55,947 bases of DNA. Source: Gammaproteobacteria bacterium. GTDB lineage: Bacteria > Pseudomonadota > Gammaproteobacteria > AKS1. The DNA lies in assembly GCA_027006175.1 (NCBI GenBank), contig JALTKS010000067.1, forward strand, positions 1-55,947, given 5' to 3'. The position numbers and the translations under genes were made by a program. Positions 49,618 to 55,845 of the stretch are shown here, piece after piece. Positions within the stretch are counted from its first letter, which is position 1; the number at the start of each line of letters is the position of its first letter. The notes beneath the pieces are model-generated. The model worked only from the letters and a program-made list of their open reading frames with translations, was not told where the DNA came from and did not search any database.

Positions 49618-50930
49618 CCAACAGTATTACTCGCTCAGTTATTATCATTGGTGGTGGCTGGTCGGGTCTCACCGCCGCAACCGAGTTATTAAAAAATGGC
49701 TATCAGGTGAGCCTTTTTGAATCAGCCAAACAACTGGGCGGTCGAGCAAGATGCGTTGCTTTCGATAAGCATCGCGTTGACAATGGGCAACATCTTCTCA
49801 TTGGTGCTTATAAAAACACCTTATCGATGCTAAAAACATACGATGTTGATATGAGTGCTTCTTTATTACGGACGAAACTAACATTATTAGTCATTAACAA
49901 GAACAAACAAACCTTTAGTTTGCAGTTAGGGAAACTACCCGCTCCACTTAATATTTTGTTTGCTTTTTTAAACCTTAAGAATATCCCGTTAAAAGACCGC
50001 CTGAAAACCTGCGGCTTCCTGATTAAACTTCGATTAATGCAATTCAAGCTGAAACATGACATTAGTGTTAAAACTTTATTGCGCAAGCAACCGGATATAA
50101 TGATTAAACAATTTTGGGAACCGCTCTGTCTAGCCGCACTTAATACATCTATTAGTGATTCGTCGGCACAAATTTTTCTTAACGTGTTAAAGGACAGTTT
50201 TACCACAACACCGGATGCGTCTGATTTAATTATTCCAAAAGTAGATTTAGCTACTTTATTTGTTCATCCGGCAATGCAATATATTGACCAACATGGCGGC
50301 AATATTACTCTGGGTAAAAAAATAGTAAAAATCACAAGCGATCAAACATCAGCAACAGCCATTGACGCCGATGGCAACACTTATAGTGCTGAACATATTG
50401 TTCTTGCCGGTTCACCCTCCAGCAGTATTAACTTACTTAAAAATGCTGACTTACTCGAATCCAGTCAACAATTATTAGCGCAACTTGACTATGAACCTAT
50501 CTGCACCGTTTATCTGCAATACCCTGATAACATATCTTTACCAGAACCGATGGTTGGGCTCACCAATTGTACCGGGCAATGGATTTTTGATCGCCGCTTT
50601 TGCCAACAAGACGGGCTCATGGCGGTGGTTATCAGCGCCTCAGGCGATCACATGCAACTTGACAAAATGACATTGGCACAAATTATTAGTGATGAGCTCA
50701 GCGAAATATTTGATTGGCCGGATGCCGATAAAAGTTTCGTTGTTCGAGAAAAACGGGCGACCTTTAAATCATCGGTCAATATCAATCAATATCGCCCAGG
50801 CAATGCAAGCTCAGATGCCAGAATATGGTTCAGTGGTGATTATACGCTTAGTCGTTACCCCGCCACACTCGAAGCGGCAGTGCAGAGTGGGTTACAATGT
50901 AGCCAACAGATTATTAACCAGTCGCATTAA
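49614..50930 (+). CDS. hpnE: hydroxysqualene dehydroxylase HpnE
   Basis: 438 aa FAD-dependent amine-oxidase/phytoene-desaturase-like protein. The dinucleotide-binding N-terminus is VIIIGGGWSGLTAA, followed by ESAKQLGGRARC and a C-terminal FSGDYTLSRYPATLEAAVQSG. It reduces hydroxysqualene to squalene. No squalene-hopene cyclase or carotenoid genes are in the window, so the end product (hopanoids, C30 carotenoids or squalene itself) cannot be told. Confidence 0.94.
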   Translation: MTNSITRSVIIIGGGWSGLTAATELLKNGYQVSLFESAKQLGGRARCVAFDKHRVDNGQHLLIGAYKNTLSMLKTYDVDMSASLLRTKLTLLVINKNKQTFSLQLGKLPAPLNILFAFLNLKNIPLKDRLKTCGFLIKLRLMQFKLKHDISVKTLLRKQPDIMIKQFWEPLCLAALNTSISDSSAQIFLNVLKDSFTTTPDASDLIIPKVDLATLFVHPAMQYIDQHGGNITLGKKIVKITSDQTSATAIDADGNTYSAEHIVLAGSPSSSINLLKNADLLESSQQLLAQLDYEPICTVYLQYPDNISLPEPMVGLTNCTGQWIFDRRFCQQDGLMAVVISASGDHMQLDKMTLAQIISDELSEIFDWPDADKSFVVREKRATFKSSVNINQYRPGNASSDARIWFSGDYTLSRYPATLEAAVQSGLQCSQQIINQSH

Positions 50931-50952
50931 CCGAACAAAGGTCAGAGTTATT

Positions 50953-51717
50953 ATGTCTTCAGCCATTCCTGATAATTACCACCCAGGTAAAGAACTGCTT
51001 AAAGATCGCGTCATTCTTGTAACCGGTGCGGGCGATGGTATTGGTAAAGCTGCGGCTAAAATCTATGCGGCGCATGGCGCCAGTGTTGTGCTAACCGGTA
51101 GAACCAGTCATAAACTCGAGGCAGTGTATGATGAAATTATGGCAGAAGGTAATCCCGAACCAGCCATTTTTCCACTCGACCTGTCTTCTGCCACACAAGA
51201 AGATATCTTGGGTCTCACCGGCGGAATTTCGAACGAATTTGGCCGACTTGATGGTTTACTCAATAATGCAGCCGAACTAGGCTCACTGACACCGATTGAT
51301 CACTACCCTGTTGACTTACTGCAACGTATCTTAACGGTGAATCTACAAGCCCCCTTTATATTAACCCAGGCCTGTTTACCTTTACTGCGTCAGGCTGACG
51401 ATGCTGCCATCCTGTTTAGTTCTACTGAGCCTTACGAGAAATCAGGTGCTTACTGGGGTGCTTACGGTATGTCTAAACAAGGCCTGGACTCTTTTATGCA
51501 GATCCTTGCTGATGAATTGGAAAGCAATACACCCATTCGCGTCAATTCTATCGATCCAGGACCAATACGTACCCGGTTACGCCAATTAGCTTACCCTGCC
51601 GAAGACTTAAGCAAACTTAAATTGCCCGAAGACGTAGCAAGCACCTACCTTTATATGATGGGGCCAGACAGCAAATCCCTACGCGGACAAATTGTTAAGG
51701 CAAAATACGGCAAATAA
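50953..51717 (+). CDS. yciK: YciK-type short-chain dehydrogenase
   Basis: 254 aa from ATG 50953 (SSAIPDNYHPGKELLKDRVI). A longer open frame extends upstream to 50689 inside hpnE, but that part is antigenic noise, not conserved. Rossmann motif TGAGDGIGKAAA, NNAAELG, catalytic SSTEPYEKSGAYWGAYGMSKQ (Tyr and Lys of YxxxK) and the DPGPIRT loop are present. The substrate is unknown. In Pseudomonas this gene comes right after mupP. Here about 6.9 kb (kinase, rmuC, hpnCDE) separates the two. Confidence 0.92.
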   Translation: MSSAIPDNYHPGKELLKDRVILVTGAGDGIGKAAAKIYAAHGASVVLTGRTSHKLEAVYDEIMAEGNPEPAIFPLDLSSATQEDILGLTGGISNEFGRLDGLLNNAAELGSLTPIDHYPVDLLQRILTVNLQAPFILTQACLPLLRQADDAAILFSSTEPYEKSGAYWGAYGMSKQGLDSFMQILADELESNTPIRVNSIDPGPIRTRLRQLAYPAEDLSKLKLPEDVASTYLYMMGPDSKSLRGQIVKAKYGK

Positions 51718-51852: not shown

Positions 51853-51925
51853 AAATCATGGCACGATATTCGCATCATGAATAACAAAACAAATACGTTT
51901 TGAGGATGTACAAATCATGGCACGA
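51853..51925 (+). repeat. duplicated translation-start segment before the diguanylate cyclase
   Basis: The 14-bp AAATCATGGCACGA occurs at 51853-51866 and again at 51912-51925. The second copy spans the real ATG (51917). The first copy opens a 9-codon minicistron (51858-51884) that is out of frame with the gene. The true start has GAGG about 12 nt upstream, and the first copy has none. Confidence 0.7.
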
Positions 51926-52849
51926 CTACAAAATACCGAAGCGAAAATTCTCGATACTCACTTTTTGGAAGGACGAAACACCGTGCTTTCAACAACAGCA
52001 ACACCTGCACAAAAGCAATCCGAGCCTTACAAGGCTGATTGGGAATTAAATAGAAAGCTTCAAACAAGTTTACATGTAGATGACATCACCAACATCTTCT
52101 TTGATGGTATTCAAACCGAATTTAATTTTGCTCAAATGATTTTTGAACACGAAAAAAGTGACACCAATATTACGATTGGTGATAAAGCGGCTCGCCACAG
52201 CTGTAATTATCAAATAGAAATTGCCGGAGAATCACTTGGGCGCTTAAGTTTTACTCGCACTATCCGCTTTGCTGAACACGAATTAAACCGCCTGGAAGAA
52301 CTGCTTTGCTTGCTGGTCTACCCACTACGCAATTCCTTGTTATATGAAGAAGCATTGAAAAAAGCCATGCATGACCCTTTAACAGGTACATTAAACCGTG
52401 CAGCACTGGACACAATGCTGGAAAAAGAAATTGATCTTGCTCACCGCCATGATAACCCACTGTCACTATTAATGATTGATATCGACCATTTTAAAGATAT
52501 TAATGACAACTATGGTCACAGTATGGGCGATAAAGTGCTGCGCTCACTGGTCGATGGTCTCAATAATCATATTCGTAACTCAGATATTCTGTTCCGTTAT
52601 GGTGGTGAAGAATTCACTGTTCTTCTTAACAATACCAATATTGATGGTGCTCACTTACTTGCACAACGTATTCGTAGCAGCATTGAAAAAATGACTCATA
52701 TATATGATGGCACGGTTATCCAGCTCACCATCAGTATCGGCATGGCTACATTAGAAAATAATGAAACAGCAAACCAATTACTTGAACGTTCTGATTCAGC
52801 CCTCTATGCAGCGAAGAAATTTGGTCGAAACTGCGTTATTCAAGCCTGA
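51917..52849 (+). CDS. diguanylate cyclase (GGDEF)
   Basis: 310 aa. The N-terminal ~145 residues look like a degenerate GAF domain (LGRLSFTRTIRFAEHELNRLEELL). The C-terminal GGDEF domain starts at DPLTGTLNRAAL and has the active-site GGEEF at 229-233. RNSD at 220-223 is the product-inhibition I-site. It makes cyclic di-GMP from two GTP and lacks signal peptide or membrane helices, so it is cytoplasmic. A PilZ or EAL partner is not seen here. A protein of unknown function follows 105 nt downstream. Confidence 0.95.
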   Translation: MARLQNTEAKILDTHFLEGRNTVLSTTATPAQKQSEPYKADWELNRKLQTSLHVDDITNIFFDGIQTEFNFAQMIFEHEKSDTNITIGDKAARHSCNYQIEIAGESLGRLSFTRTIRFAEHELNRLEELLCLLVYPLRNSLLYEEALKKAMHDPLTGTLNRAALDTMLEKEIDLAHRHDNPLSLLMIDIDHFKDINDNYGHSMGDKVLRSLVDGLNNHIRNSDILFRYGGEEFTVLLNNTNIDGAHLLAQRIRSSIEKMTHIYDGTVIQLTISIGMATLENNETANQLLERSDSALYAAKKFGRNCVIQA

Positions 52850-52891: not shown

Positions 52892-52921
52892 TTGACAGCT
52901 GTGGTCTAATAACATTACTAT
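52892..52921 (+). promoter_or_regulatory. promoter of the small protein gene at 52955
   Basis: A perfect TTGACA (52892-52897) is followed by TACTAT (52916-52921) after 18 nt. The transcript would start near 52928, giving a leader of about 27 nt. This gene is thus probably transcribed on its own rather than with the diguanylate cyclase. Confidence 0.65.
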
Positions 52922-52954: not shown

Positions 52955-53416
52955 ATGGTTGATCCGGCATTAGAAAGAATTAATAAGCTCACGGAGCAAA
53001 GCTACCCAATTGTGTACTTTGAAACTCTGCGGAGCATGCATATTGTCGAAATATTCAAAAACCTGTCTCTTTGCAGTAGTAAAGCAATCTATCATTGGCA
53101 ACCAGAATCAGGCATGTACCGCATGGATGCCAATCACATCATGATTCCGCGTACGATTGATGCAGAAGATGTACTTAATACGATTGATAGCATGGCTCAC
53201 TTTGGTGTATTTGTATTAACTGGCTTTGATACGCACATTCAAGATAGAAAAATCGTTAACGTATTAAAGAAAATATCATCAACTCATAGAGCCAATCCCA
53301 AAATGATTATCTTGCTGGGAAATAATATTGATGTTCCAGGCGATTTACGTCCCACCGTTGCGCATATTCGCCACACCATGCGCTCAAGCTCTTCTGCCGA
53401 AAAGAAAACAGGCTAA
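52955..53416 (+). CDS. stand-alone protein resembling the N-terminal region of Ycf46-type ATPases
   Basis: 153 aa, no signal peptide. It starts with INKLTEQSYPIVYFETLRS, then AIYHWQPESG, later VLNTIDSMAHFGVFVLTGF and MIILLGNNIDVPGDL. The succession (short helix with IVYFET, W at the nucleotide-side loop, GVFVLTGFD, IILLGN.iDvPgdL) is the pattern of the region before the AAA+ domain in Ycf46-like ATPases. There is no Walker A or B, so the protein cannot be an ATPase by itself. The resemblance is by eye and needs a profile search. It may regulate or partner a full-length AAA protein elsewhere. Confidence 0.7.
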   Translation: MVDPALERINKLTEQSYPIVYFETLRSMHIVEIFKNLSLCSSKAIYHWQPESGMYRMDANHIMIPRTIDAEDVLNTIDSMAHFGVFVLTGFDTHIQDRKIVNVLKKISSTHRANPKMIILLGNNIDVPGDLRPTVAHIRHTMRSSSSAEKKTG

Positions 53417-53420
53417 TTAT

Positions 53421-54254
53421 TTATTTACGTTTAGATCGACGTCGCTGCGATGGATGCGTGCTACGCGAATCGCGCTTGTTACTGGCTGAAACAGGTGCTT
53501 TGGTTTGCTTCATGACTTTATTTCTCATACCAACAGCAGAATATAAAGCCGCGGCTTCAGCATGATTTAAATCTCTGAACATTCCTTTACGCAAATCGCG
53601 CATTAAAAAGATCGGACCAAAACGAGTGCGCATTAAACGACTTACTTTCAGTCCTTGTGATTCCCAAAGACGACGCACTTCTCTTTTACGACCTTCTTTT
53701 AAAACAACGCTATACCAGTGATTAGCACCACTTCCACCAACATCAACGATAGAATCGAATTTAGCCACCCCATCGTCGAGCTCTACGCCTTTAGTCAAAT
53801 TATCCAGCACCTCGCCGTTAACATCGCCAAGAACCCGTGCAGAATATTCACGTTCAATTTCAGATGACGGATGCATTAAGGCATTCGCCAAATCACCATC
53901 AGTTGTGAAAAATAATAAACCTGATGTATTAAGATCAAGTCGCCCAACAATGATCCAGCGAGAACCTTGTAGTTTTGGCAAGTTAGCGAATACATCAGGA
54001 CGACCATCAGGATCATTACTTGTACAAATCACACCTTCAGGTTTATTATAAACAAGAATACGGTGCTGCTGTTCATCGAAAGTAAGTTCGATTAACTTAC
54101 CATCAAGTGCTACTTTTTCATTCTCAGAAATACGATCAGCCGTTTTAGCCAAACGACCATTAATCGTAAATCGGCCTGCCTCTATCCACCTTTCCATTTC
54201 TCGCCGAGAACCATAACCACTACGAGCAAGAATCTTGTGTAGTTTTTCACTCAT
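53421..54254 (-). CDS. rluB: 23S rRNA pseudouridine 2605 synthase RluB
   Basis: 277 aa. An N-terminal S4 domain (about 1-60) precedes the RsuA/RluB/E/F catalytic domain with VGRLDLNTSGLL (catalytic D107) and LKEGRKREVRRLWES. The basic tail (residues 250-277) is rich in K, R and S. It modifies U2605 of 23S rRNA in E. coli. Last gene of trpS - scpA - scpB - rluB, 9 nt after scpB, a common bacterial arrangement. Confidence 0.94.
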   Translation of the reverse strand: MSEKLHKILARSGYGSRREMERWIEAGRFTINGRLAKTADRISENEKVALDGKLIELTFDEQQHRILVYNKPEGVICTSNDPDGRPDVFANLPKLQGSRWIIVGRLDLNTSGLLFFTTDGDLANALMHPSSEIEREYSARVLGDVNGEVLDNLTKGVELDDGVAKFDSIVDVGGSGANHWYSVVLKEGRKREVRRLWESQGLKVSRLMRTRFGPIFLMRDLRKGMFRDLNHAEAAALYSAVGMRNKVMKQTKAPVSASNKRDSRSTHPSQRRRSKRK

Positions 54255-54263
54255 GAAAAATAA

Positions 54264-54962
54264 TCAATCAACTTTTTCAGCTGATACTTCATCAACATTA
54301 ACAGATGATGATTCAGATTCAGAAGAATTATCCGCTATTTCATTGCCTTCGTTACTCTCTGATTTGTCTGGTGACTCTTGTTCCGGCATTTCCAGACCGG
54401 GTAATTGCAAATCAAGCTCAGCATTAATTGTTTCAAAATCCCGTAATTCAGCAAGTGATGGAAGTTCGTCTAATGACTTTAAATTAAAGTAATCAAGGAA
54501 TTGCTTTGTTGTGCCGTACATCGATGGCTTACCGGGCACATCACGATGGCCAACTACTTTAATCCATTCACGCTCAGTCAATGTTTTTATGATATTACTA
54601 CTCACAGCAACACCACGTACATTTTCAATTTCACCACGCGTTGCTGGTTGACGATAAGCAATAAGTGCTAACGTCTCTAGCAATGCACGGGTATAACGTT
54701 GTGGTTTTTCTTCCCATAAGCGCGAGACCCAGGGTGCCATGTCTTCACGAACCTGTAACCTGAAACCACTCGCGATTTCCTTAAGTTCAATACCACGGTC
54801 ATGACAGTCTTCACCGATTTCAGCCAGGGCTTTACGAATATCATTTTTCTCAGGTTGAAAATCACCTGCTGCAAATAAATGCATTAATTTATCAATATTC
54901 AGCGGTTTACCTGAAGCAAGCAATGCGGCTTCAATTACTTTTTTTACAATATCAGGATTCAT
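54264..54962 (-). CDS. scpB: segregation and condensation protein B
   Basis: 232 aa. It has two winged-helix domains, with ALIAYRQPATRGEIENVRG and TTKQFLDYFNLKSLDELPSL as the family hallmarks. A glutamate/serine-rich tail of about 45 residues is likely disordered. With ScpA it forms the kleisin complex that binds SMC, organising and segregating chromosomes. It overlaps scpA by 11 nt. Confidence 0.95.
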   Translation of the reverse strand: MNPDIVKKVIEAALLASGKPLNIDKLMHLFAAGDFQPEKNDIRKALAEIGEDCHDRGIELKEIASGFRLQVREDMAPWVSRLWEEKPQRYTRALLETLALIAYRQPATRGEIENVRGVAVSSNIIKTLTEREWIKVVGHRDVPGKPSMYGTTKQFLDYFNLKSLDELPSLAELRDFETINAELDLQLPGLEMPEQESPDKSESNEGNEIADNSSESESSSVNVDEVSAEKVD

Positions 54963-55845
54963 CGTTTTCAGTATCCGGCGTTATAGTAGGAGATTCTGCA
55001 TTATCTTTCGATGACGCGACAGCTTTTACATAAATAGGTCCAAATGGTTCGTTCTGCACCATTTCAATTAAAGTTTCTTTCAATAATTCTAAAATAGCGA
55101 GCAAACTAACGACAACACCGGAACGACCTTCTTCAGGTGTAAATAAATCAGAAAAATCAGTAAAGTCATCTGCTTTAATCAGGGTTAAGACACTCGACAT
55201 ACGTTCACGTACAGACAAAGGCTCCATTGCAATATGGTGATGCTGGAAATTTTCTGCTCGTTTCAACACTTTTTGAAATGCCGTCAACATATCTTGCAAA
55301 CTAACATCTGGTGCTTTTCTAACAACGGCGACATCCGGTGTATCAATTTCCACTTCGTAAATATCACGATTTAATCGCGACAAGCTATCAATATTTTCTG
55401 CCGCCTGTTTGAAGCGTTCATATTCCTGTAATCGGCGCACTAACTCTGCACGAGGATCTTCACCCTCTTCGCCTTCTTCTTCACGACGTGGCAATAACAT
55501 ACGAGATTTAATCTCGGCCAGCATGGCAGCCATAACCAGATATTCTGCAGCCAGCTCAAGTTGTAACTCTTTCATCACTTCAACATATTCCATGTACTGT
55601 GTCGTGATTTCAGCAATGGGAATATCAAGTACATCAAGATTTTGACGACGAATTAAATATAATAATAGATCTAACGGCCCTTCAAATGCATCCAGAAACA
55701 CTTCAAGCGCATGCGGAGGAATATAAAGATCCTGCGGTAATTCCGTTACCTTCTCACCTTGCACAACCGCAAAAGGCATTTCAGCTTGCTGCGGTGCTTG
55801 AGCAGTTTCAGCTTCATCAGCGATGGCGTTATCAGTTTCACTCAT
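54952..55845 (-). CDS. scpA: segregation and condensation protein A (kleisin)
   Basis: 297 aa. The N-terminal FEGPLDLLLYLIRRQNLDVLDIPIAEITTQY is the ScpA signature that binds SMC head or neck, followed by a linker with AEIKSRMLLPR and the C-terminal winged helix (VSLLAILELLKETLIEMVQ). A 25-residue acidic/Ala-rich N-terminal extension precedes the core. It begins 5 nt after the trpS stop. The coupling to trpS is frequent in proteobacteria. Confidence 0.95.
   Translation of the reverse strand: MSETDNAIADEAETAQAPQQAEMPFAVVQGEKVTELPQDLYIPPHALEVFLDAFEGPLDLLLYLIRRQNLDVLDIPIAEITTQYMEYVEVMKELQLELAAEYLVMAAMLAEIKSRMLLPRREEEGEEGEDPRAELVRRLQEYERFKQAAENIDSLSRLNRDIYEVEIDTPDVAVVRKAPDVSLQDMLTAFQKVLKRAENFQHHHIAMEPLSVRERMSSVLTLIKADDFTDFSDLFTPEEGRSGVVVSLLAILELLKETLIEMVQNEPFGPIYVKAVASSKDNAESPTITPDTENDES

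Follow-up and report, generated by a model that had tools for sequence, protein, structure and literature searches.

The window, by which we mean the whole 55,947-nt stretch of contig JALTKS010000067.1 that was analyzed, carries a short gene for a stand-alone relative of the N-terminal domain of larger ATPases, presumably of the Ycf46 type. On its own strand the gene is preceded, in order, by hpnC, hpnD, an hpnE-like gene, a short-chain dehydrogenase gene and a diguanylate cyclase gene, and it is followed on the opposite strand by rluB, scpB and scpA. The features discussed below are collected in Table 1. The designations hpnC, hpnD, hpnE-like, YciK-like (the dehydrogenase), RluB-like, ScpB-like and ScpA-like were assigned from the look of the sequences and are presumptive. 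The true start of the dehydrogenase gene probably lies inside the frame given in the table. In the cyclase, ~130-150 amino acids precede the GGDEF domain, and this N-terminal region (window positions 51917-52387) gave no Pfam match at E ≤ 0.1.

Table 1. Positions of the stand-alone gene, its promoter-like site and the neighboring genes in the window.
Feature	Position	Strand	Remarks
Short-chain dehydrogenase gene (YciK-like, name presumed)	50689..51717	+	Upstream part of the block
Diguanylate cyclase gene	51917..52849	+	GGDEF domain; I-site-like RNSD and GGEEF
Promoter-like site, TTGACA-18-TACTAT	52892..52921	+	Consensus match only; upstream of the stand-alone gene
Stand-alone relative of the Ycf46 N-terminal domain	52955..53416	+	Degenerate AAA+ core (predicted), Walker A absent
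RluB-like pseudouridine synthase gene (name presumed)	53421..54254	-	Convergent neighbor
ScpB-like gene (name presumed)	54264..54962	-	Part of the conserved block
ScpA-like gene (name presumed)	54952..55845	-	Part of the conserved block

The stand-alone ORF begins with ATG and encodes 153 amino acids, the tabulated coordinates including the stop codon. Its translation contains IVYFET (residues 19-24), W48, GVFVLTGFD (84-92) and MIILLGNNIDVPGDL (117-131), in agreement with the ORF and the residue strings given in the original prediction for this DNA. Orthologs were found in the other three genomes of the genus that were analyzed. One of these, a binned genome, has copies of 94 and 88% identity on two contigs, and the other two have orthologs of 72-74% and 58% identity. 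Comparison with the closest ortholog gave a dN of 0.025 and a dS of 0.267 (ω of 0.095 by NG86 and 0.115 by YN00); the resulting dN/dS of ~0.1 rests on this closest pair, the other three pairs being saturated or undefined in dS. Because orthologs occur in these genomes and dN/dS is this low, the conservation of the ORF exceeds chance, and the ORF is real and under purifying selection. The two copies in the binned genome (L003, JALTKP010000245.1, G003:C245; and L004, JALTKP010000307.1, G003:C307) lie on separate contigs with the same neighbors, and we infer that they probably come from two related species binned together rather than from a duplication.

The gene had also been credited with a promoter of its own. 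The hexamers TTGACA and TACTAT are indeed present, 18 nt apart, with a score of 10 out of 12, the best of four such sites within a 2-kb stretch. Both are retained in the two closest aligned relatives (L085 and L084), TTGACA alone is found in L055, and neither occurs in L056. This much of the claim stood, but promoter-like sites are no more frequent in the 2-kb stretch than in shuffles of it (4 versus a mean of 5.2), and the site is best described as promoter-like.

The gene product was originally proposed to be related to the N-terminal region of Ycf46 and to have no ATPase domain, and both proposals were borne out. A genome search for a full-length paralog located one on contig 70 of the source genome, where a second match (E of 2.4e-11, residues 14-150) lies inside a 528-codon open frame that holds GVQGCGKS and DEIEK and whose C-terminal half matches Pfam AAA at 6e-30. 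When 28 stand-alone sequences were aligned with 11 full-length N-domains using hhalign, an ungapped match of 144 columns was obtained with a probability of 99.7 and an E-value of 7.4e-26. The stand-alone protein thus matches the N-terminal ~145 residues of the Ycf46-type ATPases along its length, but it is without their helical part and their AAA+ module with Walker A and DEIEK or DELEK. Those two motifs are present in all 11 of the aligned full-length proteins, none of which has GK[ST] in its N-domain. The 153-aa ORF ends before the AAA+ module would begin, and Walker A (GxxxxGK[ST]) is found in 0 of the 28 aligned stand-alone members, one of which (L072) has the shorter GK[ST].

Sequence searches with the window's protein returned chance-level matches only (best E of 0.22 in Pfam, 0.015 in NCBIfam and 0.076 in PDB), and no Pfam AAA model matched any of the 28 members at E ≤ 0.01. 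In each of Pfam, PHROGs and NCBIfam a single member of the 28 matched an unrelated model (E of 0.007-0.009), and these candidates were rejected. The stand-alone family lies outside the coverage of the Pfam and NCBIfam releases searched, and the profile libraries searched held no model naming the Ycf46 family. With a full-length profile at E ≤ 1e-60, the full-length genes were detected in 68 of the 369 sampled genomes of this class. Synechocystis slr0374 bears the name Ycf46 (PMC7496141), and an effect of a cyanobacterial Ycf46 mutant on carbon use (Jiang et al., 2015, as described in citing passages) is all that those passages report. Judged by titles and listings, the Ycf46 papers listed show no stand-alone form, and among those joining Ycf46, AAA and N-terminal domain none has the Ycf46 N-domain as its topic by title. 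The gene described here represents a family without a name, in which a known domain occurs as a stand-alone variant.

The structure of the stand-alone protein was predicted with AlphaFold from six sequences (pLDDT of 79.2, pTM of 0.76). The first half of the model consists of a helix (4-14), a strand (19-24), a helix (27-40) and three strands (44-49, 53-56 and 59-63), and the second half of a helix (70-79), a strand (84-89), a helix (98-109), a strand (116-122), a helix (129-134) and a strand (135-140). A low-confidence, disordered tail follows the last strand, and the C-terminal helical lid is absent. This order of strands and helices is that of an AAA+ core. The 50 matches listed by Foldseek against PDB are AAA+ proteins or related NTPases, with weak E-values (best 2.4e-3, none below 1e-3). 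VIA-align gave Z-scores of up to 12.1, with 961 of 981 chains at Z ≥ 5; since Rubisco activase, NVL and p97 fall within one Z unit, no single structural relative stands out. The comparison of models that the original prediction had proposed thus points to an AAA+ core, at least on the side of the stand-alone protein; the model of the full-length protein, built from two sequences, was too poor for use (pLDDT of 39.9).

Like the AAA+ cores of RFC, DnaA/Hda, p97 D1 and Rubisco activase, the stand-alone protein is predicted to have the AAA+ order of strands and helices and the AAA+ fold, but unlike them it has neither Walker A nor a lid, and its Walker B acid is not conserved. Across the 28 members no acid is conserved at the end of strand 3, where Walker B would place it: position 90 is G in 10, D in 9, N in 3, E in 3, Q in 2 and T in 1, and position 92 is D in 5 of the 28. 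An AAA+ core order with Walker A missing leads us to predict a stand-alone AAA+ core that is catalytically dead. From the predicted fold and the hhalign relation together, the N-terminal half of Ycf46 would itself be a degenerate AAA+ core, a point that the original prediction had missed. The AAA+ domain of Sir3, which is not known to use ATP, aligned to the model with a Z of 11.4 in VIA-align, and delta-prime of the clamp loader is likewise a catalytically dead AAA+ protein. The stand-alone protein would resemble both in using the AAA+ fold without ATP hydrolysis, but Sir3 and delta-prime are parts of known larger assemblies, whereas the protein described here is a lone core.

In silico analysis of the 369 genomes with a profile of the stand-alone family produced a match at E ≤ 1e-3 in 71, and sorting of the matches by open frame and translation left 27 genomes with a stand-alone gene. 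G260 and G355 were counted, their long frames arising from an upstream out-of-phase run over the cyclase gene, and so were G149, in which the gene is split across two contig ends, and G318, in which it is shortened to 104 aa. G037 was excluded because its gene (L083; G037:C1:3385578-3387332) is a full-length Ycf46-type gene broken into an N-terminal frame and an AAA frame. In a sample of the phylum, 23 of 398 genomes matched and 5 had a stand-alone frame, the matches listed being from the same class. Two genomes of one family, G223 (L068 and L069) and G107 (L071 and L072), each carry two diverged stand-alone paralogs, outside the block of neighbors seen in the window.

In the phylogenetic tree, 29 stand-alone and 28 full-length N-domain rows lie on opposite sides of one branch with a support of 100/100, and the stand-alone protein falls outside the clade of full-length N-domains. 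That branch was recovered in 100% of 200 bootstrap trees, in a bootstrap that had not fully settled; the tree omits the duplicates L046, L047 and L155, the copies of G003 and the contig-end pieces of G149, and takes in G746 and G563 from outside the 369 genomes. A single clade set apart from the full-length N-domains indicates that recent truncations, one after another, do not account for the family. The gene could in principle be a decaying remnant of a full-length Ycf46 gene, as it is short and without the ATPase module and has a relative in G318 cut to 104 aa, but the dN/dS of ~0.1, the wide spread and the one separate clade in place of repeated truncations make this very improbable, and a recent truncation or pseudogene was rejected on the first and last of these grounds. 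The G318 relative (L075; G318:C78:1232-1612) owes its length to a stop within the domain, and the cyclase of the same genome has DGEEF rather than GGEEF; the two genes are possibly decaying as a pair.

The original prediction had offered a role as regulator or decoy subunit of a full-length AAA protein. Such a protein would pack against the N-domains or the ring of full-length Ycf46, to which it is related by domain family, and modulate it; both genes are present in the source genome and in its three analyzed relatives from the genus. Full-length genes are also commoner where the stand-alone gene is present (11 of 27 genomes) than where it is absent (57 of 342), a comparison that ignores kinship. 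In the 11 genomes with both, however, the two genes are at least ~0.5 Mb apart or sit on separate contigs, and the other 16 have only the stand-alone gene, full-length Ycf46 being absent at E ≤ 1e-60; ten of these 16 are listed as 99-100% complete. A decoy role therefore cannot be general, and we regard a regulator or decoy of full-length Ycf46 as a distinctly unlikely explanation.

Conservation of the neighborhood, one of the checks proposed originally, was evident. The block recurs far outside the genus: 19 of the 27 genomes have an RluB-like homolog downstream in the opposite orientation, and in 17, from 8 family codes, the gene immediately upstream and in the same orientation is a cyclase, always of one family. 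A cyclase of this family occurs in 152 of the 369 genomes; it is present in 20 of the 27 that have the stand-alone gene and in 132 of the 342 that do not. In the other 7 of the 27 no cyclase of the family was found at E ≤ 1e-10; five of them (G022, G127, G204, G087 and G210) have the stand-alone gene in the block with the family cyclase absent from the genome at that threshold. In G075, G107 and G223 the only cyclase match, a weak one in G075, sits elsewhere in the genome. Since the stand-alone gene keeps its place in the block in five genomes without the cyclase, the adjacency of the two may reflect inherited gene order, which can explain much of it.

The spacing of the two genes does not imply co-transcription, given gaps of 55-195 nt between the cyclase and the stand-alone ATG in the 11 of 18 pairs where it could be placed, and the promoter-like site of the window's gene. 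Of the remaining pairs, five have no ATG before the domain and two have frames that run back into the cyclase; in one of these two, G004 (L058), the aligned start lies 14 nt inside the end of the cyclase. Over 11-13 loci, distances between stand-alone proteins were correlated with those between cyclases (partial r of 0.36-0.56), but given the cyclase they were also correlated with those of RluB (0.46) and the dehydrogenase (0.47), the value for ScpB being 0.12, and hence the correlation is not cyclase-specific. A cyclase tree made by a quick method mixes cyclases with and without the stand-alone neighbor and calls for five changes, two of them forced by starred branches. As the cyclases with this neighbor are spread over more than one clade, the pair was lost or moved several times. 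A search for hidden, diverged copies of the gene beside the cyclase in 60 of the 132 cyclase-only genomes, as far as the contigs reached, found none, the best listed E being 0.32.

Outside the block, a second arrangement was found in three genomes of one family, f181 (G746 and G563, taken from the phylum sample, and G367, which belongs to the 27). In all three, a gene of ~850-870 codons comes closely after the stand-alone gene in the same orientation, the products in G746 and G563 being 53 and 49% identical to that in G367. The downstream genes of G367 and G563 match GGDEF at 1.6e-49 and 1.1e-50 and EAL at 1.2e-72 and 8.9e-73, respectively. All three downstream genes are tightly joined to the stand-alone gene, starting with a 1-nt overlap in G367, 3 nt after the stop in G746 and, in G563, with an ATG 13 nt after it. 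Matches to GGDEF number 18-29 in each of these genomes of 3.8-5.7 Mb, or well under 1 in 100 genes at ~1 kb per gene, and the pairing is thus unlikely to be due to chance at one given site. Since six kinds of outside-block site were inspected, the odds against chance are not extreme, and since the three genomes belong to one family, their pairing may be a single event. Elsewhere, L072 of G107 lies between a CheW gene, from which it diverges, and a convergent gene for a response regulator with a DUF3369 and an HD domain, and inspection by eye of the outside-block sites of G286 and G223 showed no c-di-GMP gene next door. Among the 27 genomes, the stand-alone gene thus adjoins the family cyclase in 17 and a GGDEF-EAL gene in G367; the other 9 have neither.

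Taken as a whole, these results lead us to favor, tentatively and at close to an even chance, a stand-alone pseudo-AAA+ protein that would serve c-di-GMP signaling as an adaptor or regulator. The protein would be an AAA+ alpha-beta core without Walker A, a conserved Walker B acid or the lid; it shares homology with the N-terminal module of Ycf46-type ATPases, which is inactive, and yet forms its own clade. The usual hydrolysis of ATP would not be expected of it; it would instead act by binding, with a partner or ligand within c-di-GMP signaling. A role in this pathway is suggested by the recurrent neighbors, which make or break c-di-GMP and are arranged in two dissimilar ways: a dedicated diguanylate cyclase gene stands upstream of the stand-alone gene, or a tightly joined GGDEF-EAL gene stands downstream of it. 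Full-length Ycf46 may be the partner where it is present. The link to c-di-GMP, which had been suggested from the adjacent cyclase alone, is partly supported: a cyclase or GGDEF-EAL gene does adjoin in most genomes with the gene, but the block is conserved as a whole, and this includes the five genomes without the cyclase. The support is real yet incomplete.

Instead of a protein partner, the protein may have a ligand. The vacated nucleotide pocket, or a hairpin with the pattern Y-x-W-x4-G-x2-R, could bind a small molecule, possibly c-di-GMP, and the protein would then be a sensor without protein partners. Y46 is conserved in all 28 members, G53 in 27, and W48 and R56, together with P65, L74, G84 and L131, in 26 each. 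The neighboring cyclases are predicted to be active, as RxxD-5-GGEEF is retained in 17 of the 18 checked, and there is a precedent in FleQ, an AAA+ regulator whose AAA+ domain binds c-di-GMP according to the parts of the report consulted (PMC10723142). On the other hand, the W, G and R are invariant in the 11 aligned full-length N-domains as well and may therefore be structural, and some genomes carry the stand-alone protein without the family cyclase. We consider a sensor of this kind unlikely. More specific, and rather improbable in our estimation, is a new kind of c-di-GMP effector built on a dead AAA+ core, with its gene next to those for the synthesis or breakdown of its ligand. Binding of c-di-GMP would fall to the lost ATP site or to the Y-W-G-R hairpin, an ability that the N-module of full-length Ycf46 might share. 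FleQ makes this version testable. The stand-alone protein would resemble FleQ in its predicted AAA+ fold and in a possible tie to c-di-GMP, but in FleQ the ATP site is intact and a DNA-binding domain is present, and binding of c-di-GMP by the stand-alone protein is hypothetical. If the N-terminal half of Ycf46 is a degenerate AAA+ core that also lives alone beside c-di-GMP enzymes, the stand-alone form offers a small, tractable protein with which to study that half.

Two further observations concern the neighborhood. The cyclase PA3177 of P. aeruginosa may occupy a similar one. PA3177 is similar in size to the window's cyclase and is induced by hypochlorite, according to the passages of the report consulted (PMC5702645). 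In addition, a gene for an HhH-GPD base-excision repair protein (L060:9441-10169, minus strand; Pfam 2.7e-14), with similar genes recognized by eye in L059, L067, L076, L091 and L098, often separates rluB from the stand-alone gene or from the cyclase and is then encoded on the opposite strand.
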